A stretch of 64,000 bases of DNA, taken from assembly GCA_028284285.1 (NCBI GenBank), contig JANQSA010000032.1, positions 248,001 to 312,000 of the forward strand, read 5' to 3'. The stretch comes from Croceivirga sp. Lineage in GTDB: Bacteria > Bacteroidota > Bacteroidia > Flavobacteriales > Flavobacteriaceae. Positions within the stretch are counted from its first letter, which is position 1, and every line of letters begins with the position of its first letter. Both the position numbers and the translations under genes were made by a program. Below the pieces are notes generated by a model. The model was not told the DNA's origin. It worked only from the letters and a program-made list of their open reading frames with translations, and did not search any database. This document shows positions 32,106 to 54,493 of the stretch, in pieces.

Positions 32106-34964
32106 ATGCGTTTCAAATCGGGGTACATGCATTACCGGCCATTTTTTTTCTTAATAGTGTTTTTTTCGATTGGTGCTCATGCACAAGAATTCCAGGTATC
32201 CGGAAGAATATTCGATGATGAACAAAACCTTCCGCTCCTGGGGGCATCTGTGATTCTTAAATCACCGGGTGGGGCTACTGTTGCCGGAGTTGTAAGTGAT
32301 GAGTTCGGTTATTTTGAGATTCACACCTATGATGTGGCCAATCATTCATTGGAAATAAGTTATTTGGGGTTTGACACACAGACTTTTGAATTTTCCGATG
32401 TATATGAAAACATAGATTTGGGTACCATTAAGTTGGTCACGATCACATCTCGGCTCGATGAAATAATCGTCTCAGGAAGTCTCGAAGGAAAAACAAGGGC
32501 CTTAAATCTACAAAAGACCTCAGATAATATTAAGAATGTAGTTTCGGCCGACCTGATTGGAAGATTTCCTGATTTAAATGTGGCGGAAGCACTGCAACGT
32601 GTACCTGGGGTCAACATTTCTCGCGACAAAGGAGAAGGTTCAACGGTTAACATTAGGGGCACGCCCTTAAATTTCACAACCGTACAGATAAACGGAGAGC
32701 AACTCCCCAGTGTACAACAGAACGGCGCGAGAACAGAGTCGCTTGATCTTATACCCGCAGATCAATTGGCGTTTATGGAAGTTACCAAAGTGCCAACACC
32801 GGATATGGATGGAGATGCTGTAGGGGGCACGGTCAACTTAAAAACCCCCATTGCAAGATCAAAGGATTTTAGAATAAAGGCCGAATCCGGTTTTGGATAC
32901 AACGATATTTCAGACGGGCTGAATGGGATCAATAAATTACGGTTTGGGAAACGTTTTTGGTCTACTGACAAAGTTCCTGAGGGAAAATTTGGGGTCATTG
33001 CCAGTGGTAGTGTTTTCAATTCCAATAATTCCGAGCATAGTACCGAAGCGGCCTGGCGTGGTATAGAAGATCCTGAACTAGGGGTGGTTCCCATGGACCA
33101 ATATCAATATCTACTCACGGAGAATGAAAGACAACGATTGGGTGCCGTACTTACGCTGGACTACAAATTCAACAGAAATCACAGTATTGTCTTCAACTAT
33201 ATGTACAACGAAAGGCAAGACGTTGACACCAGAAACAGACTTCGCTTTGATATCGATAGTGACCGTGGGGCGAATTATGTTACCATAGATTCCATCATTG
33301 ACGGCAGATCCCGAAGGGATATTAGTATACTGGATGAATTAAAGCAGAACCAAAGCTTCAATCTTGAGGGGTATCACAAACTCGGATCCTGGATTCTGGA
33401 TTGGAGAGCTTTTTATTCCTTTTCAGAGCGAACCTTTTTTGGTGAAAGGGGTGATTTTGGAAGCCCGGACCGGGAGACAGTTATCATTGCAGACAATCCG
33501 CAGGGTATTCTTGGTGAAGACCCGAACTTCAGAACCGCCTCCTTCGAGCAAAGTATTTATGATCCCTTTCTCTATGACAATTTTAGAAGGTACGAAGAAG
33601 ACAGTGAAACGACCGATGCCACCAATTTGGTGGGTAAACTCGATATAACAAAAGGCATCACCGTAGGCAATGCGGAAGGATTTATCAAATTTGGAGGAAA
33701 GTACCGTACTCAAACCAATGAAAAAAACAGGGACAATATCATATTTGTGATAAATGATCCCAATAATGCATTTGACGAAGAGAATTCATTTTTACGTTCC
33801 ATTTCGGGAATAGAACCTACCCACTTTTTATACGGGGATTACAGATTTGGTCCACTTATAGGTAAGGACGAGTTTAGACAGGAAATACGAAATGCCAGAA
33901 GGTTTTTAAACAGTGAGTTCAGGGATTGGAACTCACGGCAGATTTCGCTCAACGATACCTATGAGGCGCAGGAGGATATTTATGCAGCCTATGCCATGGG
34001 AAGAATTGAATTCAACAAATGGATGGTATTGGCGGGAGTGCGCATGGAGTACAATGAGGTCAACTACGACGCTTTTGATGTATTTCGATTTGGCAATAAT
34101 ATTGAGGCAGAACCTATTTCAGGGGGCAACAATTATGTTTTTTGGCTTCCCAACTTGCACGTGAAGTATAGTTTAGACGACTACACCGCTTTGCGCTTTT
34201 CCACCGCCTTCAATTACGCACGACCGAATTTTGTGGATGTTGTGCCTTTTGTGGATTTGGACCAGGATGCTTTTCGCCTGAGCCTGGGTAATCCTGATCT
34301 GAGACCTGCAGAAGCACTGAATGTGGATGTAATGTTTGAGCATTATTTCAAGAATGTAGGGGTTATTTCAATAGGGGCATTTTATAAGCGCATTGACAAT
34401 TTTCAGTTTACCCGTTTCAGTCCATCATTGACAAGTGATTTTCCGGGTTTCCCCGCAACCACTGGTTTTCAGTTCAATCAGGAACAAAATGGAGATATCG
34501 CTGAAGTTGCCGGTCTGGAGTTCAACTTTTTTCGTTCGTTGGGGTTTTTACCCGGATTTTTCAGGAATTTCAATCTTGAGGGAAATTACACCTATGCCTA
34601 TTCTGATGCATCCACCCAGGATCGCGAAGGGGTCGCCTTACCGGGTCAGGCAGAGCATACTTTTAATACCGCGCTGGCTTTTGATTATAAGAACTTCACG
34701 GCAAGGGTATCGGCAAACTATAATGGAAGCTTTTTGAATTCACTCGCCGATGATCCGGAAAGTTCCAATGATGAAATCCAGGAAGAACGTTTGCAAATTG
34801 ATGCCAATGCCTCCTTGAGATTTGGGAAAAACTTCAGGTTTTATGTAGAAGGCATCAACTTAACCAATGAACCTACCATACGGTTCCAGGGCAATCGTAA
34901 CCAGGTTTCAAGAAGGGCATTTTTTGGTTGGATTATGAGGATGGGAGTGAGCTATACACTTTAA
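32106..34964 (+). CDS. TonB-dependent receptor, SusD-less type (TIGR01782-like)
   Basis: A 952-residue receptor with a signal peptide ending near GAHAQ, a carboxypeptidase-like domain (about 28-115, VSGRIFDDEQNLPLLGASVI), a plug with VAEALQRVPGVNISRD and RTESLDLIPADQ, DMDGDAVGGTVNLKTP, and a barrel ending in MRMGVSYTL. These features match the Xanthomonas/Caulobacter-type carbohydrate receptors rather than SusC. There is no susD gene; instead two beta-helix lipoproteins follow within 13 and 31 bases. It is clearly related to the receptor at 50099. An internal ATG (32127) is an alternative start. Confidence 0.92.
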   Translation: MRFKSGYMHYRPFFFLIVFFSIGAHAQEFQVSGRIFDDEQNLPLLGASVILKSPGGATVAGVVSDEFGYFEIHTYDVANHSLEISYLGFDTQTFEFSDVYENIDLGTIKLVTITSRLDEIIVSGSLEGKTRALNLQKTSDNIKNVVSADLIGRFPDLNVAEALQRVPGVNISRDKGEGSTVNIRGTPLNFTTVQINGEQLPSVQQNGARTESLDLIPADQLAFMEVTKVPTPDMDGDAVGGTVNLKTPIARSKDFRIKAESGFGYNDISDGLNGINKLRFGKRFWSTDKVPEGKFGVIASGSVFNSNNSEHSTEAAWRGIEDPELGVVPMDQYQYLLTENERQRLGAVLTLDYKFNRNHSIVFNYMYNERQDVDTRNRLRFDIDSDRGANYVTIDSIIDGRSRRDISILDELKQNQSFNLEGYHKLGSWILDWRAFYSFSERTFFGERGDFGSPDRETVIIADNPQGILGEDPNFRTASFEQSIYDPFLYDNFRRYEEDSETTDATNLVGKLDITKGITVGNAEGFIKFGGKYRTQTNEKNRDNIIFVINDPNNAFDEENSFLRSISGIEPTHFLYGDYRFGPLIGKDEFRQEIRNARRFLNSEFRDWNSRQISLNDTYEAQEDIYAAYAMGRIEFNKWMVLAGVRMEYNEVNYDAFDVFRFGNNIEAEPISGGNNYVFWLPNLHVKYSLDDYTALRFSTAFNYARPNFVDVVPFVDLDQDAFRLSLGNPDLRPAEALNVDVMFEHYFKNVGVISIGAFYKRIDNFQFTRFSPSLTSDFPGFPATTGFQFNQEQNGDIAEVAGLEFNFFRSLGFLPGFFRNFNLEGNYTYAYSDASTQDREGVALPGQAEHTFNTALAFDYKNFTARVSANYNGSFLNSLADDPESSNDEIQEERLQIDANASLRFGKNFRFYVEGINLTNEPTIRFQGNRNQVSRRAFFGWIMRMGVSYTL

Positions 34965-34977
34965 AAAGAAAAAGAAG

Positions 34978-36600
34978 ATGATTCGTTATTACCGGTTATT
35001 ATGTGTTACGGTTACCATAGCATTTTTGGGGTGTACCCGGAACGAAATCGAATTTGAACTTCCCGGACCCTCACTGACCATTTCTACTCAACTACCTGAT
35101 GAAATTCTCCAGGAGGCCGGAAATGATATCTTTCAAGACTTTAAACTGCAATCGGCCAAGGGATTACAGCGGTTTGAGGTTTTTTTGGACGATCGACCAT
35201 TTGAAAGTATAAGCTATGACGGTGAGATAAATGTGGAATACAGTTTTCTGTACACCATACCCTCAGACACACCCAATGGTACCCGGTCAAAGTTTGAGTT
35301 TGTCTTGTCTGATATTACCGGAGAACAAGTAAGATATGAGATCAATTTTAGGGTCAATACTACCTTTTTTGAACAACCGGACACCATTGGAGATACCCCT
35401 GTTGTACGTCTTAAAGGAAGATTGAACCGGGATTACGTTTTGGAAGCCCAAAACACCTATGTAGTAGACAGTGTTCTTTCCGTTGAAAACAATAGTGTGC
35501 TCACGGTTGAGGCGGGAAGTACGGTGTATTTCACAGCAACCGGTGATCCCAATAACCAATCCAAGTTGGTCATAACCCGGGGCTCAAAGATCACGGCGGA
35601 GGGCACAGCAGAAAACCCGATTGTGTTTACGAGTGAAAGGATTTTGAGAAGTGAAGAACCATCACCTGCAGATTGGGACGGTCTGGTAGTATACGGTTTT
35701 GCGCCCAACAATGAGGCGGCCGTGGTACTTGATGAAGGTTTTAGATATGGTGGTGATCAGCCCAATGACAATTCCGGGGTTTTGCGTTATTTACGGATCG
35801 AATATGCCGGCAACGTCAATGACAATAGCCAGCACGCTTTGAGATTATACGGGGTAGGTGCGGCAACCCAGGTAGATCATATACACATTTTTAGAAACTA
35901 CAATATCGGGATCCGCCTGCGGGGAGGACGGGTGAACCTTAAATATATAGCTGCTATCGGGCATGGAGGCTATGGCCTTTGGGCTGACCGGGGTTGGCAG
36001 GGAAAAGGCCAGTTTTGGCTTTTCCAGACGGATGTGCAGGCTACCCTGGTACCCGTTAACTACTGGAACATCGCCCGCTCGGTAGAAATGCGAAACGACG
36101 CCGATAACTTTCTGAAAAATCCGAGGACCACCTTTACGATCAGCAATGTAACCTGTATCGGCAACGGTTATCAGGAAGGTATTGACACAGGCACAAGAAG
36201 AGGCGTACGTCTTCGGACGGGTGCCATCGGTTCTTTCCAAAATGCCATCATTACCGGTTTTCCCAATGATGCCGCCCGTGTGGAGGATCTGGATATTGAG
36301 GTACTGGGTGTCGATATGATATTTGACAACATCCGGTCTTTTGACAATGCGAACAACTATGAGCAAGAAGCCAGGACCGTATTTTTTGAGGATCCCAATG
36401 ATGAATACAACGTAACGGATGACCCCGTTGCAGGGATCTCGCTTACCAACTTTATAGGCTCGGAACCCTCACCTTTTGACCCGGCCACCATGGACAACTT
36501 TTTTACCAGTGCGCCCTATATAGGTGCCGTTGAGAATGCATCGAACGATTGGACAAGTGATGGGAATTGGTTCAAAGATATCGATGGCAATATTAGGTGA
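34978..36600 (+). CDS. Beta-helix surface lipoprotein, copy 1
   Basis: A 540-residue lipoprotein (FLGC, cysteine 19). An Ig-like region (about 30-130, with FLYTIPSDTPNG) precedes a right-handed parallel beta-helix (about 150-430), recognisable from LTVEAGSTVYF, ITAEGTAENPIVFTS, ADWDGLVVYG, and GVLRYLRIEYAG. The C-terminus has APYIGAVENASNDW and ends KDIDGNIR. Two paralogs share this layout (36632 and 52973). No lyase or hydrolase catalytic residues are evident, so a glycan-binding role next to the receptor is inferred. It starts 13 bases after the receptor stop. Confidence 0.85.
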   Translation: MIRYYRLLCVTVTIAFLGCTRNEIEFELPGPSLTISTQLPDEILQEAGNDIFQDFKLQSAKGLQRFEVFLDDRPFESISYDGEINVEYSFLYTIPSDTPNGTRSKFEFVLSDITGEQVRYEINFRVNTTFFEQPDTIGDTPVVRLKGRLNRDYVLEAQNTYVVDSVLSVENNSVLTVEAGSTVYFTATGDPNNQSKLVITRGSKITAEGTAENPIVFTSERILRSEEPSPADWDGLVVYGFAPNNEAAVVLDEGFRYGGDQPNDNSGVLRYLRIEYAGNVNDNSQHALRLYGVGAATQVDHIHIFRNYNIGIRLRGGRVNLKYIAAIGHGGYGLWADRGWQGKGQFWLFQTDVQATLVPVNYWNIARSVEMRNDADNFLKNPRTTFTISNVTCIGNGYQEGIDTGTRRGVRLRTGAIGSFQNAIITGFPNDAARVEDLDIEVLGVDMIFDNIRSFDNANNYEQEARTVFFEDPNDEYNVTDDPVAGISLTNFIGSEPSPFDPATMDNFFTSAPYIGAVENASNDWTSDGNWFKDIDGNIR

Positions 36601-36631
36601 ATGAAACTAAGTATAACTGATAAATTATAAA

Positions 36632-38245
36632 ATGATGAAAACAATGATTGACTATTTAAGAAACAGCAAATGGCTTTTGGGCATTTTTGCACTGATACTG
36701 GTAGTCTCCTGCAGTAGTGACGATGACGGGGATGATGAGCCGACACCACCTCAGACAGCGGCCCCTACCATAAGTATTGACGGGGAAACATCTATCAACG
36801 CAAAAGCGGGAGAGACTTTTTCGGTTACCTTAAACCTGGATGCCGAAGCGGGGAACAAAGAGCTGGTGGTTTCTACCAACGGGGGCGTTTTGGAAGTGGT
36901 TACCCTGACAGCAGATGCTACCTCTTTTGAGTACAATACCCAATCCGTACCCGCTGAATCCACTGAAGGGCAAGAATACCAATATCAATTTGTTTTAGTT
37001 GACAGTGAAGATCGGGAGTCGAGTTCAGTAACGCTTACCATAAGCGCAGAATTGTACGATCAGTTGGCAGTGGGTACAGAAACCCTTTATAATGTAACCA
37101 TTCCTCAAGATGGGATAGTGACAGGGGATATACTTTTTACATCAGGAAGGAACTATTTGGTCGCCGAACCTCTTTTGTTCGATATAGGAAGTTCCCTTAC
37201 CATTCAGGAAGGGGTTGCTGTCTACATGGAAGTACCCACGGAAGTGGATGAGCCAAGAGTGGAAATCTCATTGGTACCTGGTGCCACATTGACTATTACC
37301 GGATCCGCCACAAGCCCGGTGGTAATGACACCCACTTCTGTACTAACCGGCGATCCTTCCCCTGGAGACTGGAATAGATTGAAAGTTGGCGAAACCAATG
37401 CGCCTCTTACAAATAGCACTATTCGATATCTTAGGACCGAATATGCAGATGACGGCCTGCGATTGGTTAATCTGGACAACAGCAATACCGTAGAGTTCAT
37501 TCAGACCTTCAAATCGGATGACGAGGGATTCTATATTACCGATGGTACTGTAAATGCTAAATATCTTGTCGCGACTGATAGCAAGACAAATGGGTTTAGG
37601 TTAGGTGACGCCTATGAAGGAAAACTGCAATTTGGCATCACCCATTTGTCAGAAGTATTGGAAGCTGAAGAATACGCTATAGAAATTCGTGAAGACTCAA
37701 AGGCTCTATTGGCCAACTTCACCCTTTTAGGTGCCGGTCAGGACACGGAAGACGAAATGTACGGTCTTAGGTTAAGGGCTGCTAGCGATGCCCGAGTTTA
37801 TAATACCGCTGTGGCCAGCTTTACGCGAAGAGGTGTTCGTGTTAATGAAGAAACACCTATTGGCGGTACCCTGGAGGGTCCTACCGTGTTTGCGTACAGT
37901 TATGTATTTGATATCAGAGAACAACACTACAGGGACGCGCCCTTCGGCGGTACAAGAAACCCCGATGATGGTAGTGTGGTAAACCCCTTCTTCAACAATA
38001 CCACAGGTTTTAACGAAGTTGATGATGGAATGGGCGGCACCGTATTTGAACCCATATATGAAGTAATTGCAGGTATTGGAGTTAATGACTTTATCCCGGA
38101 TGCTACGGTTACAGCATTGGAAAATCATGATCCTTCTTCGGTTGATGCATTCTTTGAATCGGTAACTTTTGTAGGAGCCATTGAAAATGAGGGCAGCGAT
38201 TGGACCACCGGTTGGGTCAAAAACACAGATGGATCTATTAGATAA
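36632..38245 (+). CDS. Beta-helix surface lipoprotein, copy 2
   Basis: A 537-residue paralog of the preceding gene. The signal ends in LVVSC (cysteine 27) followed by SSDDDGDDE, a strong acidic export signal for surface exposure. An Ig-like domain (about 45-140) is followed by a beta-helix (about 155-430) with LTIQEGVAVYM, PSPGDWNRLKVG and STIRYLRTEYADDG. The C-terminus FVGAIENEGSDWTTGWV and NTDGSIR repeats the family end motif. It starts 31 bases after copy 1, has no receptor of its own, and is the last gene before a strong terminator. Confidence 0.85.
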   Translation: MMKTMIDYLRNSKWLLGIFALILVVSCSSDDDGDDEPTPPQTAAPTISIDGETSINAKAGETFSVTLNLDAEAGNKELVVSTNGGVLEVVTLTADATSFEYNTQSVPAESTEGQEYQYQFVLVDSEDRESSSVTLTISAELYDQLAVGTETLYNVTIPQDGIVTGDILFTSGRNYLVAEPLLFDIGSSLTIQEGVAVYMEVPTEVDEPRVEISLVPGATLTITGSATSPVVMTPTSVLTGDPSPGDWNRLKVGETNAPLTNSTIRYLRTEYADDGLRLVNLDNSNTVEFIQTFKSDDEGFYITDGTVNAKYLVATDSKTNGFRLGDAYEGKLQFGITHLSEVLEAEEYAIEIREDSKALLANFTLLGAGQDTEDEMYGLRLRAASDARVYNTAVASFTRRGVRVNEETPIGGTLEGPTVFAYSYVFDIREQHYRDAPFGGTRNPDDGSVVNPFFNNTTGFNEVDDGMGGTVFEPIYEVIAGIGVNDFIPDATVTALENHDPSSVDAFFESVTFVGAIENEGSDWTTGWVKNTDGSIR

Positions 38246-38270
38246 GTGGTTTGAGTTGAGTTAGTTAGTA

Positions 38271-38310
38271 TGAAGCCGAAAAAAATCGTTTTTTTCGGCT
38301 TCATTTTTTT
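38271..38310 (+). terminator. Strong Rho-independent terminator after the receptor/lipoprotein operon
   Basis: A perfect 15-bp stem (arms 38271-38285 and 38289-38303; TGAAGCCG followed by seven A, and its complement) closes on a TCG loop and is followed by seven T residues on the plus strand. It ends the operon 32106-38245. The remaining bases up to the convergent GH2 gene show no further feature. Confidence 0.92.
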
Positions 38311-38471: not shown

Positions 38472-41087
38472 TTAGTGTAAACTTCTAATGGCAATAGCGC
38501 TCAATACGGTTTTTCCCTTTACAGCATTTAAGGAGACAAGAACACCTTTATCCCCTACAGCTTTGACTATGGTTTTTTTGCGCAAAGGATAGTTGTAGCC
38601 ATATGCTTGGATCAGGTCCAGATCCTGGAGTAGTGGTTCTTCATTAATAAAAACATCAAAAACACGAATACCTCCCGGGTGTTCCGGCGATTCAATGCCT
38701 TCCACAAACCGGCGCGATTTCGGATAGGGCTCTACAAAGAGCAACGCTACCTCGTACCAACCATCGGGCACATCAAAGCGATAGGCTGCTATATCTTCCC
38801 GCATGGTTTGATACAATGGGGTAAAGGCTTCAATGGTCTGAATATCCTCTTTTGTCCCAATCTTCTTACCGACATAAAGTGGTTTTCCGCCAACATGGCC
38901 CCAACTCTGGTCTTCATAAGGTTTATCGGCAACCCAGGTCATATCTCCGGTCATATCATAAAAAGAATGATTGCTCCCAACATTGACGGCCACGGCCACG
39001 GCCACGGGTTCGTTCTTCTTAAATGTTTTTGGTACGATCTTATTTTGTATTTCAAGACGGTCAGCGGTGTTTTCGGATCGTGCCTCTACAACATTGTTTC
39101 CTGTTTTCAATACCACTTTAAAACTTGTCTTGTACGCATTTACCTTTTGGGTGGCTACTTTTACATCGTTCAGGAATAGACTTATTTTTTCTTGATTTGA
39201 ATACACATCTATTGTGTTTTTGGTACTGTCGCCTACGGTAGTTCTGTGGGTATGGTTGGTTTCAGCGATTTTCACGAAAGGGCGATCCAAAAGGTTCGCC
39301 TGAAACCGGAAAAACGGATCTTTGGGTCTTCTATCTGCGGTAAGCAGCCCTTTCTGGTTCAGGTGCGGTTTGGTATCCACTCTCCGCTCTGAGCTAAAAT
39401 CGATAAGGTTCCAGACCGTTGCCCCGGCAACAAAGGGCCGGGCCATGATCTGTTCAAGATAGCTTTCCAATAGCGCTTTGTGTCCTTCCATGGTAAAATC
39501 AAAGCGTTCGGGGTTTTCACTGTGCAGTCTGGGATCACTCCCTGCTCCAAATTCACTGATTACATGAATTCTGTTGGGATACTTTTTGTGTTGAGCATCC
39601 AGGAATTTTCCAAAATCCTCAAACGTATCGTAGTACCATCCATGATAGAGATTCCACCCCACCACTTGTGGTATTTCTGCTATTCCTGACGTTTCATACA
39701 AAGGATAATTATGAAGTGCCATCGCGGTATAACGTGTCGGGTCTTCCTCTCTGGCAATGGCCTCGAGCCTTTTGCTCAATCTCAGCGTCGCTTCCGTATG
39801 ACGGTTTACAACAGCTTCGTCCAAAAACCGATGGGCCCAGTATATCTCGTTCATATACCCCCAAAGAATGATAGAGGGATGGTTGTAGTGCTGCCGTATC
39901 ATTTCCCGAAGCATTATTTCAGAAGTGTCATCATGGGCTTCACTCACGGTTACCTCATTGACGAGCGGGGTTTCTTCCCAAACCAAGAGACCCAGACGAT
40001 CTGCTTCTTCCAAAACCGCCGGATCCTGGGGGTAGTGGGCCAGACGGACAAAATTACCCCCCATTTCTTTTATGAGACGAAGATCGTTTCGATGTATATC
40101 ATCTGCAAGGGCATTGCCCAGACCTTGATAGTCCTGGTGCCTGTTGGCACCTATCAACTTCAGGGGCTTACCATTAAGGAAAAAACCACTATCTGCATCA
40201 AACCTGAAGGTACGGACTCCAAAATTGCTCCAGGCTTCATCTACGATAGTACCATTCTTTTCCAGCGCCAGTTCCATGGTGTACAGATAAGGAGTATCCG
40301 GGGACCATAGCCGGGGATCCTGAAGTTGCAGGCTAAGCTCAAAGGGAATGGTTTCTTCCTTTAATCTAAGCCTGGTGCGTTGTCTGGCGACAACCTCACC
40401 GGTCCGGTCGCGTATTTCCGCTAGTAAAGCTACTGTATGGGAGGCACTTGCTTGATTGGTAAGGCTTCCCTTTATTTTGACGGTTGCCGTTTCATTTCCA
40501 ATGGTGGGTGTACTGACAAAGAAGCCTTTTGACCCGTAATCCAAAAGGTTGATGTGTACGTTGCCGGTCTCTATGAGGAAAGCATCCCGATAAATACCGC
40601 CGAAAAAGGTAAAATCTGCAGAAAGCGGAGGAATGTCCGGATGGTGGGCGTTGTTCACTTTTACGGCAAGGGTATTTTGACCTTGTTTCAAAAATCCGGT
40701 AACCTCAAATGTAAATGCGGAATATCCCCCTTTATGGGTGCCCACTTCCCTTCCATTGACATAAAGCACAGCCAGTTGATTGGCTCCCTCAAAATTAAGA
40801 AAATACTTCTTTTCATTATTTGGCGTAATGCGAATTTCCTTGAAGTACCATCCGTCCCCTCTGTAGTACCCTCTTTTCCCATCTGCAAGTACGTCCCTGG
40901 CATTCCATGTGTGCGGTAGATTTACGACTGCTGTGTTCACTTCCGGGATCTTGGGGGTTTCAAGGCTTCCTTTATAAAAAACCCAATGTGCATTGATGGA
41001 GGTTTTTTTTCTCACCTGGGCAAAAGAAACCGCAAATACGGTCAGAAAAACAAATAGTAATGAAAATCGTGAAGGACAAGATTTCAT
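38472..41087 (-). CDS. GH2 glycoside hydrolase with malectin-like C-terminal region
   Basis: An 871-residue exported GH2 enzyme: signal peptide (VFLTVFAVSFAQ), jelly-roll domain (about 25-180, with NLPHTWNARD), Ig-like domain, TIM barrel from about 300 with acid/base E414 in WGYMNE and nucleophile E512 in VISEFG, then extra Ig-like and malectin-like regions up to the end. GH2 covers beta-galactosidase, beta-glucuronidase and beta-mannosidase; the exact activity is not decided here. It is divergent from the hybrid two-component regulator and probably part of that regulon. Confidence 0.9.
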   Translation of the reverse strand: MKSCPSRFSLLFVFLTVFAVSFAQVRKKTSINAHWVFYKGSLETPKIPEVNTAVVNLPHTWNARDVLADGKRGYYRGDGWYFKEIRITPNNEKKYFLNFEGANQLAVLYVNGREVGTHKGGYSAFTFEVTGFLKQGQNTLAVKVNNAHHPDIPPLSADFTFFGGIYRDAFLIETGNVHINLLDYGSKGFFVSTPTIGNETATVKIKGSLTNQASASHTVALLAEIRDRTGEVVARQRTRLRLKEETIPFELSLQLQDPRLWSPDTPYLYTMELALEKNGTIVDEAWSNFGVRTFRFDADSGFFLNGKPLKLIGANRHQDYQGLGNALADDIHRNDLRLIKEMGGNFVRLAHYPQDPAVLEEADRLGLLVWEETPLVNEVTVSEAHDDTSEIMLREMIRQHYNHPSIILWGYMNEIYWAHRFLDEAVVNRHTEATLRLSKRLEAIAREEDPTRYTAMALHNYPLYETSGIAEIPQVVGWNLYHGWYYDTFEDFGKFLDAQHKKYPNRIHVISEFGAGSDPRLHSENPERFDFTMEGHKALLESYLEQIMARPFVAGATVWNLIDFSSERRVDTKPHLNQKGLLTADRRPKDPFFRFQANLLDRPFVKIAETNHTHRTTVGDSTKNTIDVYSNQEKISLFLNDVKVATQKVNAYKTSFKVVLKTGNNVVEARSENTADRLEIQNKIVPKTFKKNEPVAVAVAVNVGSNHSFYDMTGDMTWVADKPYEDQSWGHVGGKPLYVGKKIGTKEDIQTIEAFTPLYQTMREDIAAYRFDVPDGWYEVALLFVEPYPKSRRFVEGIESPEHPGGIRVFDVFINEEPLLQDLDLIQAYGYNYPLRKKTIVKAVGDKGVLVSLNAVKGKTVLSAIAIRSLH

Positions 41088-41149: not shown

Positions 41150-41249
41150 TAGGAAGTTAAATATAATATATTTTTAATGTGTAGATGCATAAATAAGTAG
41201 TATTTTCAAGGTGTTGCGACATCTTTTAAAGCTTAAATCGATTCGTTGG

Positions 41250-45819: not shown

Positions 45820-47217
45820 TCAAAGAGTCGTTATTTTTTCTTTTAAAAAATCGGACAACTTCACTTGTTGATTTAAGTTCACCCCCCATAGCGCTTCATT
45901 GGATAAAATGGTAGTCACCGTCAGTGCTATATCCTCCATATCCCATGCTGTTTTAAAGAAAGCAATAATCGCTTCATCGTCCTTGATCGGAATACTTTCG
46001 GAACCATATTCGCCCCTGTAAAAAACAATTAAATAGGCAAGAGCTGTGGCTAATCCTTCCGGGACTTTCCCATAGCGTTCCATGTAGGTCAGGATGCTGG
46101 GCAGGACCCTAACCCTGAATTTTGAAATGGAATTCAGGGCAATATCCAATAATGCATGTTTGATAAAAGGATTCCGGAACCTATCCAATACTTCATAGGC
46201 GTACCTTTCCAATGCTGCTTTGGGCATATCTATGGTGGGAATGATCTCGTCAAATAGTATTTGCTTCAGAAACGCCCCCATTTTTTCGTCTTCTACCACC
46301 TCTCTGACTTCCGTAAATCCATGTAGATACGCTATCGGTACCATAGCCGTATGGGCACCATTGAGTATTCTGACCTTTCGGGTGCGGTAAGACCTCAGAT
46401 CATCAGTGAAAATAACATTGAGTCCGGTTTCTTGAAAATTCAGTCTTTTCCTGATGTCTTCCGGAGCTTCGATAACCCATAGATTAAAAGGTTCCGCTTT
46501 AACCACCAGATTATCTTCAAACCCGATCCGTTGCTGAATCTCATGAATTTGATTCTTTGGGAATCCGGGAACAATACGATCGACCAGACTATTGCAAAAA
46601 AAAACATCCCTTAGTATCCATTCTCTGAATCCCTGCGGAAGTTCCCAATGGTCAGCATATTGTAGGATACATTCTTTAAGCTTTTCTGCGTTTTTATCAA
46701 TTAACTCACAGGGAATAATGGTTAATTTTCCCGGCGGAGTACCTTCAAAATATTGAAACCGGTGGAAGAGCAGGGCAGACAGCTTTCCGGGAAAAGAATT
46801 GGGAAGGATCTTAAAATCCGTATCGCTTTTGTCAAACGCTATTCCCGCTTCGGTGGTGTTCGAAAAAATAAACTCCAACTGGGGATTTTCCGCCAACCGA
46901 AGAAATCCTTCGTAATCTTCATAGGGGTTTAGCACTCCTTTGACCGAAGTAATCTGCCTGGTTTTTTGAACCTTTTTACCATTTTCTATGCCCTCCAGGA
47001 GTACATAATACAATCCGTCTTGTGCATTTATGGCTTCGCCCATTCCAAGGGGCAGGGGTTGGATTATTTGGATGTTTCCTTCAAAATCCGTTTGCTCATT
47101 CAAAATGTCTATCATCCAGTCTACAAAACCGCGAAGAAAGTTACCTTCCCCAAATTGTAAGATCTTGACAGGTCTTTCGGGTGTCTCCCGTACCGTATTT
47201 CTATTCAATGGTTTCAC
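45820..47217 (-). CDS. uxaB: Tagaturonate reductase (altronate oxidoreductase)
   Basis: A 465-residue member of the mannitol dehydrogenase family: N-terminal NAD-binding ILQFGEGNFLRGFVDWMID, the central FCNSLVDRIVPGFP, and the C-terminal catalytic RKVRILNGAHTAMVP containing the lysine/asparagine/histidine set. UxaB reduces D-tagaturonate to D-altronate with NADH in galacturonate breakdown. It follows uxaC by 12 bases on the same strand. Fructuronate reductase (UxuB) is a related family, but the pairing with uxaC and the GH28 enzymes nearby favours UxaB. Altronate dehydratase and the later steps are not in the window. Confidence 0.9.
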   Translation of the reverse strand: MKPLNRNTVRETPERPVKILQFGEGNFLRGFVDWMIDILNEQTDFEGNIQIIQPLPLGMGEAINAQDGLYYVLLEGIENGKKVQKTRQITSVKGVLNPYEDYEGFLRLAENPQLEFIFSNTTEAGIAFDKSDTDFKILPNSFPGKLSALLFHRFQYFEGTPPGKLTIIPCELIDKNAEKLKECILQYADHWELPQGFREWILRDVFFCNSLVDRIVPGFPKNQIHEIQQRIGFEDNLVVKAEPFNLWVIEAPEDIRKRLNFQETGLNVIFTDDLRSYRTRKVRILNGAHTAMVPIAYLHGFTEVREVVEDEKMGAFLKQILFDEIIPTIDMPKAALERYAYEVLDRFRNPFIKHALLDIALNSISKFRVRVLPSILTYMERYGKVPEGLATALAYLIVFYRGEYGSESIPIKDDEAIIAFFKTAWDMEDIALTVTTILSNEALWGVNLNQQVKLSDFLKEKITTL

Positions 47218-47229
47218 AATACAACGGGC

Positions 47230-48678
47230 TTAAAATCCAAAATAGTCTTTGGCGTTATGATAACAGATATCACTAATAATTTTGCCTAACCACTTTTCAT
47301 CGGCGGGCAGTTCGCCTTTTTGCACATCGGTTCCTAAAAGGTTACACAGGATCCTGCGGAAATACTCATGGCGTGGAAAGGACAAAAAACTTCTGGAGTC
47401 GGTAAGCATGCCTATAAAACAGCTTAACAATCCAAGATTGGAGAGACTGTTCAATTGCTTTTCCATACCGTCTTTTTGATCCAAAAACCACCAGGCTGAA
47501 CCAAACTGCATTTTTCCTTTGATGGTACCATCGTTGAAATTTCCTATCATGGAAGCAAATACTTCGTTATCGGAGGGGTTGAGATTATAGATAATGGTTT
47601 TGGTCAATTGGTCGGTGCTGTCCAAAAGATTAAGGAAACGGGCTAAAGGCATGGCCTGTTCAAAATCGCCAATACTATCAAACCCGGTATCCGGCCCCAG
47701 CTTTTTCAACATGCGCTCATTGGTGTTACGCAATGCGCCAAGATGAAATTGTTGCACCCAGCCCAACCGATGATAACTTCGGCACAGGTGGACCAGGGTC
47801 TCGAACTTGAAGTACCTTATTTCTTCTGACGTCAGCGGTTTGCCCTCCAAAAGCTGTTGGAAAAGACGGGATATGTCAAAATCCCCTAAATTGAAGTGAT
47901 ACAGTTGCTCCAGTCCGTGATCAGCACTCTTGCAACCCAGTTGGTCAAAGAACGCCATCCTTTGATTCAAGGCAAGCATCAAATCAGTATACGTGCTTAT
48001 TTCGAAGTCCACAGTTTTTCCCAGGGTAATTAGGTACCGGGAGTATTCTCCGGGATTTTCTACAGCAAACGCCTTATCCGGCCGAAAAGAGGGGATAAGC
48101 TTTAAATTTTGGCCCTCCTTGTGAAATTCATCATGATATTTCAAATCGTCAGTCGGGTCATCTGTAGTGGCCACTACCTGAACCTTCATTTTCTCCAATA
48201 ATCCCCGTGTTCGATATGCCTCTTCTTTCAGGAGGTCCCGGGTGGTGTTGTAAATGCGTTCGGAACTGTCCTTGTTTAAAGGCTCCGAAATATCAAAATA
48301 ACGTTGAAGCTCCAGATGGGTCCAGTGGTAGAGCGGATTTCTGAGTGTATAGGGTACGGTCTCTGCCCATTTGTTGAACTTTTCTGCATCCGAGGCATTA
48401 CCGGTGATGAAGGCCTCCTCTATACCAAGCGTTCGCATAGCCCGCCATTTGTAATGATCCCCTTTTAACCAGACCTCCGTGCAGTTGGCGTATTGATGAT
48501 TCAACGCAATTTCTTTAGGAGGAAGATGATTGTGATAATCGATTATGGGTAAATCCTTCGCATACTCATGATACAGTATTTTGGCAAAATCGTTCTGCAA
48601 GAGAAAGTCTTCGTCCAGAAAGGAATGCTTTGATTTGTGCAATCGATTGTACGCGGTGTTCTTGTCGGTTAGTGCCAT
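47230..48678 (-). CDS. uxaC: Uronate isomerase (glucuronate/galacturonate isomerase)
   Basis: A 482-residue protein of the UxaC family in the amidohydrolase superfamily: LPIIDYHNHLPP with the HxH-type motif near residue 50, WLKGDHYKWRAMR near 90, VVATTDDPTDD near 170, and the C-terminal DSRSFLSFPRHEYFRR. It isomerises D-galacturonate to D-tagaturonate and D-glucuronate to D-fructuronate. It lies between lacI (23 bases upstream) and uxaB (12 bases downstream), all on the minus strand. A LacI-type palindrome lies inside its codons 10-14. Confidence 0.95.
   Translation of the reverse strand: MALTDKNTAYNRLHKSKHSFLDEDFLLQNDFAKILYHEYAKDLPIIDYHNHLPPKEIALNHQYANCTEVWLKGDHYKWRAMRTLGIEEAFITGNASDAEKFNKWAETVPYTLRNPLYHWTHLELQRYFDISEPLNKDSSERIYNTTRDLLKEEAYRTRGLLEKMKVQVVATTDDPTDDLKYHDEFHKEGQNLKLIPSFRPDKAFAVENPGEYSRYLITLGKTVDFEISTYTDLMLALNQRMAFFDQLGCKSADHGLEQLYHFNLGDFDISRLFQQLLEGKPLTSEEIRYFKFETLVHLCRSYHRLGWVQQFHLGALRNTNERMLKKLGPDTGFDSIGDFEQAMPLARFLNLLDSTDQLTKTIIYNLNPSDNEVFASMIGNFNDGTIKGKMQFGSAWWFLDQKDGMEKQLNSLSNLGLLSCFIGMLTDSRSFLSFPRHEYFRRILCNLLGTDVQKGELPADEKWLGKIISDICYHNAKDYFGF
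48638..48651. promoter_or_regulatory. LacI-type palindrome inside the uxaC 5' coding region
   Basis: TGCAATCGATTGTA differs from the perfect palindrome at 49936 by one base. It lies 27-40 bases inside uxaC, where it encodes part of NRLHK. It might act as an intragenic operator or transcription roadblock, or be chance. Confidence 0.45.
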
Positions 48679-48701: not shown

Positions 48702-49733
48702 TTATGGTTTCTTTTTTAAAGAGGAAGCTCTTATGATCAACTCGGGCTGTATCACGGTCTTTTTGGGAACGATTTTCTTTTTTTCTGCGTTTAATGCATG
48801 GAAAAAGAGGTTGGCTGCCGTATGGCCCATTTCTATGGGGAACTGATTTACTGTGGTTAAAGGGGGGTCAGTGAAGGAGGTGAACGGTTCATTCAAAAAG
48901 CCTACCAATGCCACATCTTCAGGGATTTTCAATCCATTTTCCTTCAATACCTGCATGGCGCCCATAGCGGCATAATCACTGGCGGAAAAGATCCCATCAA
49001 AAGCCTCTCCTTTCCTTAACAACGCTTTGGTGTGGGCTCTTCCATCTTCCAATTGCAGGTTACCGCTAAACACCAGCGCCTCGTTAGGTTTAACCTGGTA
49101 ATCCTGTAAGGCGTTTAAATAGCCCCTGTAGCGTTCTTTGTATATATCAATCTTTCGTTCCGTGGTAAAATGGGCAATCTTTCTACAACCTTGTTCTAAT
49201 AAATGTGTTGTAGCAAGATACGCACCCTGATAGTCGTCAATCACCACTTGGCCGGTTTGCAGGTGGGGTGTAGTTCGGTCAAAAAGGATCAAAGGAAGGC
49301 CACGCTCCAGAACTTGCTTGTAATGGTCAAATTGCTGGGTATTCTTTCCAATTGAGGCAATGATTCCGTCCACCCGGGCATTTAGGAACGCCTTTACGGC
49401 ATTTTCCTCATTGTCCAAAACCTCGTTGGATTGACTCACTATGACCCTGTAATCCAGGGAATTGGCTACTTCTTCCACTCCGCGAATGATGGAGGAAAAG
49501 AAAGACCGATTGATCGTGGGGACCAACATCCCGATAAGCTGTGTTCGCCCGCTCCGTAAGGCGGAGGCAATGTGGTTGGGTTCGTAATTCAACTCCCGGG
49601 CCGTTTTAAGAACAGCTTTCTTTGTGCTATCACTTATCCTGGGATTTCCTTTCAGCGCACGGGAAACTGTAGAGGCTGTAACATTCAGCTTCTCGGCAAT
49701 ATCATGTATGGTGGTCTTCTTCGTATTTTCCAT
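48702..49733 (-). CDS. LacI-family transcriptional regulator
   Basis: A 343-residue LacI/GalR protein: helix-turn-helix TIHDIAEKLNVTASTVSRAL at the N-terminus, the hinge helix PNHIASALRSG near residue 53, and a periplasmic-binding-protein-like effector domain (about 65-340). It is first in the lacI-uxaC-uxaB unit and divergent from the receptor operon at 50099. Three palindromes of the LacI type lie nearby, so it probably represses both directions until a uronate or its product binds. The effector is not known. Confidence 0.93.
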   Translation of the reverse strand: MENTKKTTIHDIAEKLNVTASTVSRALKGNPRISDSTKKAVLKTARELNYEPNHIASALRSGRTQLIGMLVPTINRSFFSSIIRGVEEVANSLDYRVIVSQSNEVLDNEENAVKAFLNARVDGIIASIGKNTQQFDHYKQVLERGLPLILFDRTTPHLQTGQVVIDDYQGAYLATTHLLEQGCRKIAHFTTERKIDIYKERYRGYLNALQDYQVKPNEALVFSGNLQLEDGRAHTKALLRKGEAFDGIFSASDYAAMGAMQVLKENGLKIPEDVALVGFLNEPFTSFTDPPLTTVNQFPIEMGHTAANLFFHALNAEKKKIVPKKTVIQPELIIRASSLKKKP

Positions 49734-49949: not shown

Positions 49950-50098
49950 CAAACTATTTTACTAACAACTCAAAAAAGGTTTATGTCCCGAAATGCAAAG
50001 GATTATAAAGTAGAGGAAAGTGAGTTGCCTGCTACAGGACCAGCTTTGCTCTCATTCCTTGTATCTCACCAGTCATAAAGCTTTGAAAACACTTTGAA

Positions 50099-52969
50099 AT
50101 GAAAATACTAACGAAAACCGCCACGATTGCCATTTGTCTCAATATGTTTTGGTTTTGTATTGTCTCCGCATCTTCGGGTAATGAAGAATCCGGTCTTATC
50201 GCTTATCAGGAACAGACGGTGACAATATCAGGTAGGGTAAATGGCTCAGAGGGAGAGGTTCTTCCGGGGGCTTCTGTCTTTATCAGGAGCTTAAATTTAG
50301 GAGTTACCTCTGACATCAACGGACTGTTCAGTCTTTCACAGGTTCCTGTTGGAACGCATGTTTTTGAGATTTCCTACATAGGATACGAAGCCTACAGCAG
50401 GGAAATAACGGTAGATGGCATGGCCAATATAGATCTCGGACGAATTGTCTTAAATCCGAGTGCTAACCAATTGGGTGAAGTTATCATTACCGGGAGTATC
50501 GAAGGGCAGCAGCGAGCGTACAATCAGCAGAAAAATGCCGATCAAATTAAGACCATTGTGTCAGCGGATCTTATCAATCAATTTCCTGACATTAATGTTG
50601 GTGAGGCACTTCAAAGGGTGGCTGGAGTAAATATTGAACGCGATAATGGAGAAGGTGCCAATATCCGGATCCGGGGTACGCCAAATAACTTTGTCAATGT
50701 TACTTTAGACGGTGCACAGCTCCCAACAACTGATGGCGACAACAGAACAGAATCCCTTGACCTGATTCCGGCAGAACTTTTGGCAAGCATGGAAATCACC
50801 AAAGCATTGATCCCGGAACAAGACGGTGATGCAATTGGTGGATCCGTTAACTTACAAACCCCTACGGCCAGAAGCCAAAAAGGAAGATTAAGTGGAACTG
50901 TAGCCGGTGGTTATGCTGATATTTTTCAGCGGGGGAGCTTTAGAAGCAAATTGAAATACGAAAAACGGTTTGCGGATGATAAGTTTGGAATGGTGGTCAG
51001 TGGAAGTTATTATGAAACCGTAAATGGAGAAGAACGTTTTGAAGGTGATTGGCGAAAAAGACGCGTTGGGGAGGAAGATAACGTGACCGTACTTGACGAA
51101 TTGACACTTCGACCGCTTTTAAATCTTAGGCAACGAATTGGGGTGGGTATCACATTTGACTATAAATTCAACCAAAATTCCATGTTTTACACCTCCGTAA
51201 AATACAATAGCCTTAATGACGAGAATGAGCGGTATCGCATCCGGTTAAGGACCAGGGGTGCTTTTAACGAAACGGGAAACCCTTTTGTTGCAGGTATAAC
51301 GGACCCTGATGGGAGTATTGAAAATGGAAGCAGTACCAGGTTCCGCAGGGATATGAGAGATGATAGACAGACCCGTGAGAACATTACCTTTAATGTCGGC
51401 GGTGAGCATTTGATCGCCAATAGCCTGAAAGTAGATTATGGGTATAACCTTTCCCGTTCAGAGCGGGAAAGCTTTGAGGAAAGGGCGGTTTTCCGAGCGG
51501 AAAACTTAATTTACGATATTGACCTTTCCGATCCGGATTTCCCACAATTCATCCCCCGAAACTTTGACACCAGTGATTATTCCCAATATCAATTTGGTGC
51601 GTACCAAAGAAATTTGCCCAGTATTTTTGGCGGATTCAATCAAACGCTTTTTGCCAACGCGGCATTGCCCTTTCGATTGGGTTCAAAAGTCAACGGGGAG
51701 ATTAAGTCGGGTGCCAAGCTAAGGCTGCAAGAAACTTTCAGAACTGAGAACAACATTCAATATGCTGAGTTTGACGGCCTCTACACTATGGACCAGGTGG
51801 TGGGCGATGAGCAGGGAACGATCTTTGACGGCCGGTACGATATGGGAGCCTTTCCTTCCCCTTCAAGAGCTTTGACCCATTTTAGAGACAATTTTGATCT
51901 GTATATTTTTCAACCCGGGGAATCTCTTATCAATACGGCTTCCAATACGTACGTGGCAAACGAGGACGTTAGAGCCTGGTATAGCCAGTTCAAGCTTGAT
52001 TTCGGCAAATTGAGCATGGTTGGGGGAGTAAGATTTGAGGAAACCTACGCAGATTATGAAGCAAATATTATTGAACTTAGAGATGGGTCAGAAGCTGCCA
52101 TACCCACTGAGGGTGAGCAGTACTATAGCTTTTGGCTGCCAAGTTTGAGCTTAAAATATGAGGTACAGCGCAATTTTAACTTAAGAGCGTCTTATTTCCG
52201 TTCCTTCGCACGTCCCAATTTTATAGATATTGTACCGCGAGAGCAACGTAATTTTGCGGATGCCGAGCTTTTTAGAGGTAATCCCAACTTGCTCCCCGCC
52301 TCCGCAGACAATTTTGACGTTCTTGGCGAATACTATTTTTCAACCGATGGTACCATAAGTCTTGGAGCGTATTACAAACGTATCGAAAATTTTATCTTCG
52401 AACAGACCTCAATTATTGAGGATGACCCTATTTTCGAGAATTTTAACCTGATTCAACCTGTCAATGGTGATGTTGCCGATGTTTTTGGAGCGGAATTTAC
52501 TTTTGCCAAGAAATTTACTTTTTTACCCGGTTGGCTCTCAGGGTTTGGCTTCTATGGTAACTATACCTATACCCACAGCTCCAGCTCTTTTGTGCGCGAA
52601 CGTGAAATTGACGGGGAGATCGTAGTTCAAAGAAGGGACGATGTTCCTTTGGTAGGGCAGGCAGACCATACATGGAACGCCGCCTTGTATTATGATTATA
52701 AAAAATTTACGATTCGGGGTGCCCTAAACTACAATGACCGATTTATTCAGACTTTTGATGTTGATCCGTTCTTTGACAGGTTCAGGGAAGAAAGATATCA
52801 GCTGGATGCCAACGCTTCTTACAGAATAAATGATAATCTAACGGTTTTTATTGAAGCACAAAACCTTTTAGACAATCCCGTAGTAGAGTTTCAGGAAAGA
52901 CGCTCTCAAGTAACCAACAGAGAAATCTACGGTTGGACCGCACGTTTTGGAGTAAACTTTAAATTTTAA
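50099..52969 (+). CDS. TonB-dependent receptor, SusD-less type, second copy
   Basis: A 956-residue receptor closely related in layout to the one at 32106: regulatory domain (about 40-120, ISGRVNGSEGEVLPGASVFI), plug with VGEALQRVAGVNIERD, RIRGTPNNFVNVTLDG, RTESLDLIPAE and EQDGDAIGGSVNLQTP, and a barrel ending in ARFGVNFKF. It would import oligosaccharides released from the substrate by the downstream enzymes. A beta-helix lipoprotein gene follows after only 3 bases. Control by the LacI-family protein is suggested by the operator at its promoter. Confidence 0.93.
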   Translation: MKILTKTATIAICLNMFWFCIVSASSGNEESGLIAYQEQTVTISGRVNGSEGEVLPGASVFIRSLNLGVTSDINGLFSLSQVPVGTHVFEISYIGYEAYSREITVDGMANIDLGRIVLNPSANQLGEVIITGSIEGQQRAYNQQKNADQIKTIVSADLINQFPDINVGEALQRVAGVNIERDNGEGANIRIRGTPNNFVNVTLDGAQLPTTDGDNRTESLDLIPAELLASMEITKALIPEQDGDAIGGSVNLQTPTARSQKGRLSGTVAGGYADIFQRGSFRSKLKYEKRFADDKFGMVVSGSYYETVNGEERFEGDWRKRRVGEEDNVTVLDELTLRPLLNLRQRIGVGITFDYKFNQNSMFYTSVKYNSLNDENERYRIRLRTRGAFNETGNPFVAGITDPDGSIENGSSTRFRRDMRDDRQTRENITFNVGGEHLIANSLKVDYGYNLSRSERESFEERAVFRAENLIYDIDLSDPDFPQFIPRNFDTSDYSQYQFGAYQRNLPSIFGGFNQTLFANAALPFRLGSKVNGEIKSGAKLRLQETFRTENNIQYAEFDGLYTMDQVVGDEQGTIFDGRYDMGAFPSPSRALTHFRDNFDLYIFQPGESLINTASNTYVANEDVRAWYSQFKLDFGKLSMVGGVRFEETYADYEANIIELRDGSEAAIPTEGEQYYSFWLPSLSLKYEVQRNFNLRASYFRSFARPNFIDIVPREQRNFADAELFRGNPNLLPASADNFDVLGEYYFSTDGTISLGAYYKRIENFIFEQTSIIEDDPIFENFNLIQPVNGDVADVFGAEFTFAKKFTFLPGWLSGFGFYGNYTYTHSSSSFVREREIDGEIVVQRRDDVPLVGQADHTWNAALYYDYKKFTIRGALNYNDRFIQTFDVDPFFDRFREERYQLDANASYRINDNLTVFIEAQNLLDNPVVEFQERRSQVTNREIYGWTARFGVNFKF

Positions 52970-52972
52970 AAG

Positions 52973-54493
52973 ATGAAAAGAGTTATAAACACGAGCTTAA
53001 AATTCTTTTTGCTTACATTACTAATTGTAATCAGCTCTTGCGAGCTAAATGATGACGAGAGTTTTCCAGGGCCTGACTACCCCGATCCCCAGGTTAGTTT
53101 TGATGGTCCTTCCGACCTATCCCTGGGTGTTGGGCAATTTCTGATTATCCCTGGTATATCCTATTCCGCTGGAGTTTCATTATCCTCTTTTGTAATCTCG
53201 GAAAGTGGCAATGAACTGTTCCGAAGAAGCTTTAATACAGATGCAGGTACCTTCAGTGAGGGAATTTTTCAGCTACGGATTCCTGAGGAGTGGTTCGACA
53301 CTTCCCGTGAAATTTTGCTGTCAGCAACAGATATTAACGGAAGAGTAGGGACTACAAGCCTGAATCTGACCGTTGTGAATATTTTTCCGCAATATGAGTT
53401 TACACCCACCTCAGTTAATGGTGAAGAATTCATCTTTATAACCGGCAACATCAATTTCGATGAAACGCTAAGTTCGGATAATCGCTATGTAATTTCAGGT
53501 GAGGTGACCGTTTCGCAGCAAATCACGCTTACCATTGAACCGGGTACTACTATTTATGGAGAGAATGAAGAGGCGAGACTTGAGATCAATCAACTCGGTC
53601 AGATAGATGCCCAGGGAACTCTGGATGATCCCATAGTGTTCACCTCCTTCAACGGAGCGCCGGGACAGTCCGGTGAAGCGGAGGCCGGTGATTGGAGCGG
53701 GATTGGTATCAATGGAAACAATGATAACTCCGGGGTAATGCGATATGTACGAATTGAGTACCCGGGCAGTAATGATGATGCCTTTCAACTGACCAACGTA
53801 GGAGCCGAGACTGTTATTGAATTTATTCAAATTTTCCGCTCGCCTGATAATGCTTTCCGAATCAACGAAGGTACCGTCAATCTCAGATACCTGATTGCAA
53901 CCGATTGTGAAGATTCGGGTATGAGGGTAGATGACGGATGGATTGGTGCAGGTCAGTTTTGGGTAGTGAATACCACCTTTAATGATAATGCCATCGAAGG
54001 TCGTGATATGGCGGACTTGTTGGTGAGTAATGTCACCATAACAGGGGTTGGCTTCAATGAACCGGGCGAAGCATCCGAAGGAGGTGGATTTAGAATTCGA
54101 AACAATGCCACCGCAAGAATGTACAACTGCCTTATTACAGGTGTTGACCGTTCGCTTCGTTTCAGTGATGGTTCGGAGCAGGGTGTCGCCCAGGAAGTTA
54201 GCTTTTTGGCCAATTCCATTTCTTTTGGAAACGACGAAGATGATGGAACAGGATTTCATAGTTCCGCAGATTTCTTTAATCCTACGGATAATGACTATAT
54301 ACCAGAGTTCAATAATTCTGTAGACCCCATCACCATAGTGAACGGATATGTGGGTGTAGGTACGGAGAATTCAAGGGCAGCGGGTGCGCTATCCCCATTT
54401 TTCGAAGACGTGAACTATGTTGGCGCCGTACCTGCGGATAATGATTGGACCCTGGGATGGGTGCTGAACATTGACGGAAGCCTGAGAGAATAG
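52973..54493 (+). CDS. Beta-helix surface lipoprotein, copy 3
   Basis: A 506-residue paralog of the lipoproteins at 34978 and 36632. Lipobox ISSC (cysteine 23) followed by ELNDDE indicates surface export. Ig-like domain (about 40-135), then beta-helix (about 150-420) with LTIEPGTTIYG, IDAQGTLDDPIVFTS, GDWSGIGING and GVMRYVRIEYPG. The C-terminus NYVGAVPADNDWTLGWV and NIDGSLR matches the other two. It is in tight operon with the receptor at 50099 (3-base gap), in the position where SusD would sit. Binding of the substrate glycan is inferred. Confidence 0.86.
   Translation: MKRVINTSLKFFLLTLLIVISSCELNDDESFPGPDYPDPQVSFDGPSDLSLGVGQFLIIPGISYSAGVSLSSFVISESGNELFRRSFNTDAGTFSEGIFQLRIPEEWFDTSREILLSATDINGRVGTTSLNLTVVNIFPQYEFTPTSVNGEEFIFITGNINFDETLSSDNRYVISGEVTVSQQITLTIEPGTTIYGENEEARLEINQLGQIDAQGTLDDPIVFTSFNGAPGQSGEAEAGDWSGIGINGNNDNSGVMRYVRIEYPGSNDDAFQLTNVGAETVIEFIQIFRSPDNAFRINEGTVNLRYLIATDCEDSGMRVDDGWIGAGQFWVVNTTFNDNAIEGRDMADLLVSNVTITGVGFNEPGEASEGGGFRIRNNATARMYNCLITGVDRSLRFSDGSEQGVAQEVSFLANSISFGNDEDDGTGFHSSADFFNPTDNDYIPEFNNSVDPITIVNGYVGVGTENSRAAGALSPFFEDVNYVGAVPADNDWTLGWVLNIDGSLRE

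Follow-up and report, generated by a model that had tools for sequence, protein, structure and literature searches.

We analysed a 64,000-nucleotide stretch of the Croceivirga sp. genome (contig JANQSA010000032.1, positions 248,001–312,000; hereafter the window), in which two TonB-dependent transporter (TBDT) genes are each followed at once by genes for lipoproteins with a predicted immunoglobulin (Ig)-like domain and right-handed beta-helix, where SusD would be expected. Our preferred reading, to which we give a probability of about 60%, is that such a beta-helix lipoprotein (BHL) serves as the substrate-capture partner, probably the lid, of a SusD-less TBDT; these odds rest on locus censuses and Pfam searches. 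Homology, gene order, adjacency across phyla, correlated distances, a predicted fold and lipobox cysteines were observed directly, and from them we infer surface exposure, binding, capping and substrate. The window lies on contig C40 of the 4.8-Mb genome, and the two units are referred to as systems A and B.

Receptors and lipoproteins of systems A and B

The receptor genes, both on the forward strand, encode proteins of 952 residues (32106–34964, system A) and 956 residues (50099–52969, system B) in the open reading frame list, and the two proteins are 40% identical. Both exceeded the TIGR01782 cut-off of 310 bits, the system A receptor, which has Plug and CarbopepD_reg_2 domains, at 471.6 bits and the system B receptor at 500.0 bits. 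With the SusC family TIGR04056 (cut-off 368.25 bits), the system A receptor gave no row and the system B receptor reached 75.9 bits, while the SusC of the window at 3438–6608 passed at 863.9 bits as a positive control. We therefore rejected a SusC identity; by profile, both receptors are TBDTs of the TIGR01782 type. A PDB search with the system B receptor matched only the plug region of the colicin I receptor.

The lipoprotein genes follow on the same strand. In system A, gaps of 13 and 31 bp separate the receptor gene from BHL1 (34978–36600, 540 residues) and BHL1 from BHL2 (36632–38245, 537 residues), and in system B a gap of 3 bp precedes a single BHL (52973–54493, 506 residues). BHL2 and the system B protein are homologous to BHL1 (28 and 32% identity for the other two against the first), with BHL2 aligning to it over its length. 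None of the three matched the SusD family PF07980, and no SusD match falls within 32106–54493; the nearest of the 22 in the genome (window 1692–3437) is about 28.7 kb away. No Pfam or NCBIfam family scored above its cut-off for the BHLs, the best Pfam match being Beta_helix (E 0.52), and by sequence comparison they belong to a large family whose tested members likewise had no Pfam or NCBIfam match above cut-off.

A lipobox cysteine, followed within several positions by acidic residues, is present in all three BHLs and is kept in each of the three orthologue groups. Acidic residues after this cysteine are a feature of surface-export signals in Bacteroidota lipoproteins. The proteins also share a C-terminal motif, [DN]WT-x(1-4)-W...DG[STN]xR, found in 12 of 14 BHL1, 12 of 14 BHL2 and 6 of 6 system B orthologues, window copies counted. 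Two sets of other family members have the W-x(2-6)-W part in 46/59 and 17/33 cases and the DG..R tail in 1/59 and 0/33.

AlphaFold2 models were obtained for two of the three BHLs, BHL1 (30-row alignment; pLDDT 90.4, pTM 0.88) and the system B protein (16-row alignment; pLDDT 78.7). In both, a beta-sandwich of about 100 residues precedes a long series of short strands arranged as in a parallel beta-helix, and an Ig-like domain followed by a right-handed beta-helix is thus predicted. In Foldseek comparisons the first part lay near CARDB, PKD and FN3 domains and the beta-helix part weakly near the pectate lyases PelI/Pel3, with GH87 as a further neighbour, also weak, of the system B model; whole-chain TM-scores for beta-helix targets were low. 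We found no solved member of the family in the PDB, where the best profile match was a partial pectate lyase (E=0.001). A SusD diverged past recognition was rejected because the models show a beta-helix fold, and the modelled architecture likewise differs from the beta-propeller of a BtuG-type lid. The first-pass annotation had proposed, from the sequence alone, related receptors, lipoproteins directly behind them with Ig-like and beta-helix parts, surface-lipoprotein features and a common C-terminal motif, with SusD absent; all of these points held.

Adjacency, correlated distances and conservation in relatives

We next examined three samples of BHL loci, all consisting of best-scoring relatives, related species included. 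In the first, the best 80 of 97 confirmed stretches, a script found a same-strand TBDT within 300 bp in 70 (43 upstream, 27 downstream). Three more (L125, L141, L154) have a TBDT overlapping by 136–157 bp, which we read as over-extended starts, giving 73/80. Four of the misses lie at a contig end, L098 and L157 at the 5' end and L120 and L164 at the 3' end, the latter two retaining their upstream flank, where the gene is not a TBDT; in L132 the nearest TBDT is 5.3 kb away, and no TBDT occurs in the roughly 10 kb flanking L155 and L159 on each side. The BHL genes of these last two (L155:9881–11329 and L159:9815–11329) stand beside TRAP-transporter and PfkB sugar-kinase genes (by Pfam for L155).

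Within the Flavobacteriaceae, 185 of 199 genomes have a profile match at E<=0.001. The second sample comprised 79 distinct loci among the matches listed (29 best-per-genome, 10 and 40 hand-picked, with six duplicates, L067–L072, left out), the picked stretches extending only about 1.5 kb 3' of the match. An adjacent same-strand TBDT was present in 70/79 (61 upstream, 9 downstream). The third sample was phylum-wide and used the window-type profile at E<=1e-45, which matched 49 of 395 genomes; loci were obtained for 30 and, leaving out G000 and G119, 28 were counted. A TBDT lies upstream in 25/28, and in two of the three misses TBDT and BHL share a gene run but are separated by two genes. Near-full profile coverage including the Ig part was reached at this threshold in only 4/395 genomes (G000, G119, G471, G245), which makes the window type uncommon. 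Very roughly, chance would place a TBDT beside 1–2% of genes, assuming an estimated ~4,200 genes and the 62 plug matches of the genome. The first-pass annotation had named lipoproteins lying mostly without receptors as the outcome that would tell against it; the censuses found the reverse and led us to reject an orphan-lipoprotein reading.

TBDT-BHL pairs were found in Bacteroidota, Pseudomonadota, Acidobacteriota, Poribacteria and others. The first sample contains 28 lipoprotein-first loci, of which 6 have GspD/E relatives and 11 an ExbB relative in the fetched flank. The latter are largely from Pseudoalteromonas, in which the lipoprotein-TBDT pair (L137 and other loci) comes after a gene run with the ExbB relative; this arrangement suggests a dedicated TonB energiser. 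In one uronate-type locus, a 573-residue protein with a type IX secretion system (T9SS) sorting tail and no other Pfam domain at E<=1e-5 is encoded between TBDT and BHL (L268:9344–11062).

Trees were built with FastTree only, from 112 TBDT-BHL pairs reduced to 99 by removal of 12 near-duplicates and by one row left out by the tree program. In the lipoprotein tree, system A, its second lipoprotein and system B each form one clade, and together they form one clade (34 rows, value 100); the receptor tree likewise recovers A and B as one clade each. Receptor and lipoprotein distances were correlated (Mantel r=0.86, n=99, 0/2000 shuffles as high), also within system A (r=0.96, 0/2000) and within system B (r=0.92, n=6, 5/2000). 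We rejected a recent duplication of one module, since both trees keep A and B in separate clades. The first-pass annotation had described a single module present twice; two receptor-BHL sets do exist, but they are two distinct conserved units, A with two lipoproteins and B with one.

System calls were made by comparing the relatives' neighbours with the window proteins and two Aureibaculum proteins. System A was recovered in 15 distinct relatives (Fulvivirga, Aquimarina, Aureibaculum, Winogradskyella, Parapedobacter, Proteiniphilum, a Tannerella metagenome-assembled genome (MAG), Capnocytophaga, Anditalea and other MAGs, one of them labelled Thalassobius and perhaps misbinned), with some loci cut by contig ends. 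BHL1 is followed by BHL2 in 15/15, and a TBDT stands ahead in 14/15, the other locus beginning at a contig end. System B was recovered in six relatives (L101, L111, L113, L114, L116, L149), with the TBDT-BHL pair in 6/6. Mean conservation in system A was 54.6% for the receptor, 51.7% for BHL1 and 44.3% for BHL2. That BHL1 is conserved nearly as well as the receptor, and better than BHL2, would fit BHL1 as the lid and BHL2 as an extra binder.

Each unit would then be a SusD-less outer-membrane uptake system, in which the TBDT would be the TonB-driven pore and the Ig and beta-helix lipoprotein of the next gene would be tethered to the cell surface next to it. The BHL would bind the substrate and pass it on to the pore, most likely acting as a lid by analogy with SusD, BtuG and XusB. 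In system A, BHL1 is the candidate SusD-equivalent, by homology, lipobox and model, and BHL2, placed by homology, gene order and lipobox, would be a SusE-like auxiliary binder; the BHL of system B is placed as an Ig and beta-helix lipoprotein by homology, model and gene order.

Precedents and competing explanations

The pairing itself is not new and is in print for phosphate starvation; the comparisons here draw on the available parts of the papers cited. In Caulobacter crescentus, the gene for ElpS (CC0170) lies beside the TBDT gene CC0171 and type II secretion system (T2SS) genes, a co-occurrence that its authors took to be probably a functional interaction (PMC2996285, 2010). The Brevundimonas and Henriciella loci found here show the order BHL-TBDT-T2SS. 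The ElpS system, likened here by its published description, differs in its phosphate-starvation context, in T2SS-dependent release and in having the lipoprotein gene first. In Flavobacterium johnsoniae, FI (Fjoh_3856) and FII (Fjoh_0546) are abundant low-phosphate lipoproteins, polygalacturonase-like, beside the TBDTs Fjoh_3857 and Fjoh_0545 (PUSIII/IV; PMC8115612, 2020), and FII lies in a PhoBR cluster that resembles loci L071 and L073 here. FI and FII differ in being Pi-regulated and, by locus analogy, would be of the ~400-residue form that has no Ig domain. Adjacency to a TBDT is common to the ElpS/FI–FIII family and the BHLs. A profile of the three window BHLs matches ~400-residue lipoproteins of Pho-like loci at E ~1e-40, and Pho-type receptors are about 20% identical to those of the window. 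A 402-residue Flavobacterium beta-helix lipoprotein called antifreeze-like (PMC13413566) may belong to the Pho-type family.

Like the SusCD importers, systems A and B combine a TBDT and a lipoprotein in a sugar locus with a hybrid two-component system (HTCS) or LacI regulator and glycoside hydrolase (GH) genes; unlike them, the receptor is of the TIGR01782 and not the TIGR04056 type, and the partner is a beta-helix protein and not SusD. Lipoprotein lids of non-SusD fold are established for TBDTs (PMC10404256, PMC13142918). In BtuBG and XusAB, as here, a TBDT has a non-SusD lipoprotein, which there is a lid; BtuG is a beta-propeller, the ligands are B12 and siderophores, and those complexes are solved, whereas the present pair is known from genes and models. 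A pectin locus that contains SusCD has been described (PMC5306329), PMC11208175 in its available part adds only regulation, and the available part of PMC12611786 mentions no such TBDT-beta-helix lipoprotein pair. Among the papers listed in searches of one open-access library, in which subscription papers are largely uncovered, we saw no account of such a pair in a sugar locus. Systems A and B, with Ig and beta-helix lipoproteins in sugar loci, are thus a new variant of a known pairing. The idea of the first-pass annotation, that a beta-helix lipoprotein replaces SusD, is supported as to a partner role by gene order, trees and lipoprotein features, but the pairing had already been published, though in settings other than SusD replacement at sugar loci.

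Several observations weigh against the lid reading. Operon co-inheritance alone can yield a correlation of distances. The W-x(2-6)-W pattern is missing in 13/59 and 16/33 of the other family members. L155 and L159 have no TBDT yet carry a B-type domain, the C-terminal motif and a tail of the T9SS type (by TIGR04183 in L155 and by eye in L159), so the motif does not have to serve for docking. Six of the nine misses in the second sample are a TBDT-less subfamily of ~440 residues, by eye without a lipobox (L085, L189, L190, L192, L196, L201), which adjoins a secreted protein of unknown type, also by eye. The BHLs are strongly acidic (net charge −31 to −55), which makes direct binding of polyuronates awkward; for the same reason we dropped as unsupported an anionic-ligand theme (phosphate, uronate) drawn from conserved arginines. 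Neither the Fjoh_3856 nor the Fjoh_0546 deletion affected colony expansion, in a study that was not about uptake (PMC7807042).

The partners of the receptor class also differ. A tree of 69 chosen receptor rows, with a SusC outgroup, placed the BHL-paired receptors in two superclades, the Pho/ElpS-type and TIGR01782, and within the latter A and B are separate from a clade of receptors followed by a phytase-like gene. Such a gene follows 20 of 26 TIGR01782 receptors from other genomes, by eye with L241 checked (PF02333), in a sample of 100 Flavobacteriaceae genomes of which 24 had a match at E<=1e-90; by eye, the next gene was SusD or BHL in none of the 26. Receptors directly followed by a phytase-like gene include L009 of the Croceivirga genome (C56:6604–9153) and L241–L261, perhaps another pair with an enzyme as partner. 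The Croceivirga TIGR01782 receptors L012 and L013, next to A and B in the tree, have no lipoprotein gene next to them. A beta-helix partner is therefore not obligatory for the pore, a further point against the lid reading. These two receptors, the presence of two BHLs per receptor in system A and the existence of TBDT-less BHL copies would also suit BHLs that are free surface glycan-binding proteins of the SusE/F kind, co-expressed with a TBDT class that works without a lid. We consider this unlikely, though deserving of serious weight, since BHL and receptor genes are immediately adjacent in constant order, with correlated distances, and the conservation of BHL1 comes close to that of the receptor.

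A pectinase-like enzyme (lyase, hydrolase or esterase) that cuts the substrate at the receptor mouth is suggested by the pectate lyases and GH87 as nearest beta-helix folds, by the phytase-like gene in the same position beside sister receptors, and by the many invariant polar residues of BHL1, including H329 within a GHG string. The ordered catalytic N.D-DD motif belongs to GH28 polygalacturonases. A loose form of it is present in BHL2, the system B protein and both GH28 controls and is absent from BHL1; among orthologues it occurs in 2/14 for BHL1, 4/14 for BHL2 and 4/6 for system B, and elsewhere in the family in 22/59 and 17/33. Scattered in this way, the pattern does not discriminate enzyme from non-enzyme. 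No enzyme family scored above cut-off, PF00295 (GH28) gave no row for the BHLs while both neighbouring GH28 proteins passed, and the system B operon already holds dedicated GH28 genes. A GH28 identity is disfavoured, by Pfam only, catalytic lyase activity, which the first-pass annotation had named as an adverse outcome, is not favoured by the sequences, and we regard the enzyme explanation as improbable.

We give very little credence to the pair being a phosphate-acquisition device everywhere, with incidental sugar neighbours and a system A phosphatase that scavenges phosphate. Many members of the wider family do lie in Pho-like loci (by eye), and a purple-acid-phosphatase-like gene accompanies 13/15 system A relatives. 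However, the homologue of this phosphatase in the Croceivirga genome is on another contig (C50) with no TBDT or BHL near it, system B carries uronate and pectin genes, and the genome has a separate Pho-locus pair. This pair (L073, C20:32000–47000; by eye) comprises a PhoB-like gene, a TBDT and a 1008-residue lipoprotein with three beta-helix matches in tandem. By gene context, the window modules lie amid uronate and GH genes and not in a Pho-regulated locus.

Neighbouring genes and significance

Downstream of BHL2 lies a terminator-like hairpin (38270–38304, forward strand; 16 pairs, then a T run), identified by consensus match only, a search that found 12 such sites against 7.1 expected. It is followed by genes for a GH2 enzyme with a malectin domain (38472–41087, reverse strand) and an HTCS (41211–45389, forward strand), both assigned by Pfam. 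The relatives have the HTCS in 12/15 (one weak, 23%) and the GH2 gene in 11/15, both on either side, and a GH36/melibiase-like gene in 12/15. Unlike most of its relatives, the system A module of the window has neither a phosphatase nor a GH36-like gene beside it, and no GH36-like homologue was found in the genome at E<=0.001. Given the GH2 gene, and the GH36-like and phosphatase genes of the relatives, system A may import some galactose-type, perhaps phosphorylated, glycan.

Upstream of system B, on the reverse strand, are genes for the tagaturonate reductase UxaB (45820–47217; NF002969, 623 bits, cut-off 359), the uronate isomerase UxaC (47230–48678; Pfam/NCBIfam searches) and a LacI-family regulator (48702–49733; Pfam). 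On the other side the module continues on the forward strand, with no gap above 35 bp, into Pfam-assigned genes for an enolase-superfamily (MR/MLE) sugar-acid dehydratase-like protein (54529–55755, 35 bp after the BHL) and, in sequence, GH28, GH105/GH88-like and GH28 proteins (55752–59755; gaps −4, −4 and 6 bp). The six relatives have LacI, GH28 and GH105-like genes in 5/6 each, UxaB in 4/6 and UxaC in 3/6. Because of the UxaB, UxaC and GH28 genes, pectic (galacturonate-containing) oligosaccharides are the most likely substrate of system B. Together with the HTCS, the uronate and GH28 genes point to a sugar-uptake setting, and with TBDT, HTCS, LacI, GH2, GH28 and GH105-like genes co-located and conserved in relatives, the region is a polysaccharide utilization locus in the broad sense. 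Just upstream of system A, a third TBDT-like protein (29192–31624; OMP_b-brl_3, 258.9 bits; no NCBIfam row up to E 1) adjoins an AraC-type regulator. An 838-residue protein at 25265–27781 appears by eye to join a glycoside hydrolase to a C-terminal part that resembles a polysaccharide deacetylase.

More tentatively, and less probably than not, beta-helix lipoproteins may be a further lid fold of TBDTs in addition to SusD and beta-propellers, perhaps the most widespread, with partners that are exchangeable modules. The neighbour of the receptor (BHL, phytase-like protein or neither) would then be exchanged according to substrate, and in Alphaproteobacteria the T2SS genes beside some pairs would bring the lid to the cell surface.

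SusD commonly serves as a marker for locating sugar-uptake loci in Bacteroidota, and SusD-less units such as A and B can escape locus finding based on it. Conserved over several families, the two systems offer convenient targets for solving the structure of a receptor with its putative lid. Should the lid reading be true, TBDTs capped by lipoproteins would not be confined to Bacteroidota, which bears on the statement, in the available part of PMC10404256, that they seem to be exclusive to Bacteroidetes.

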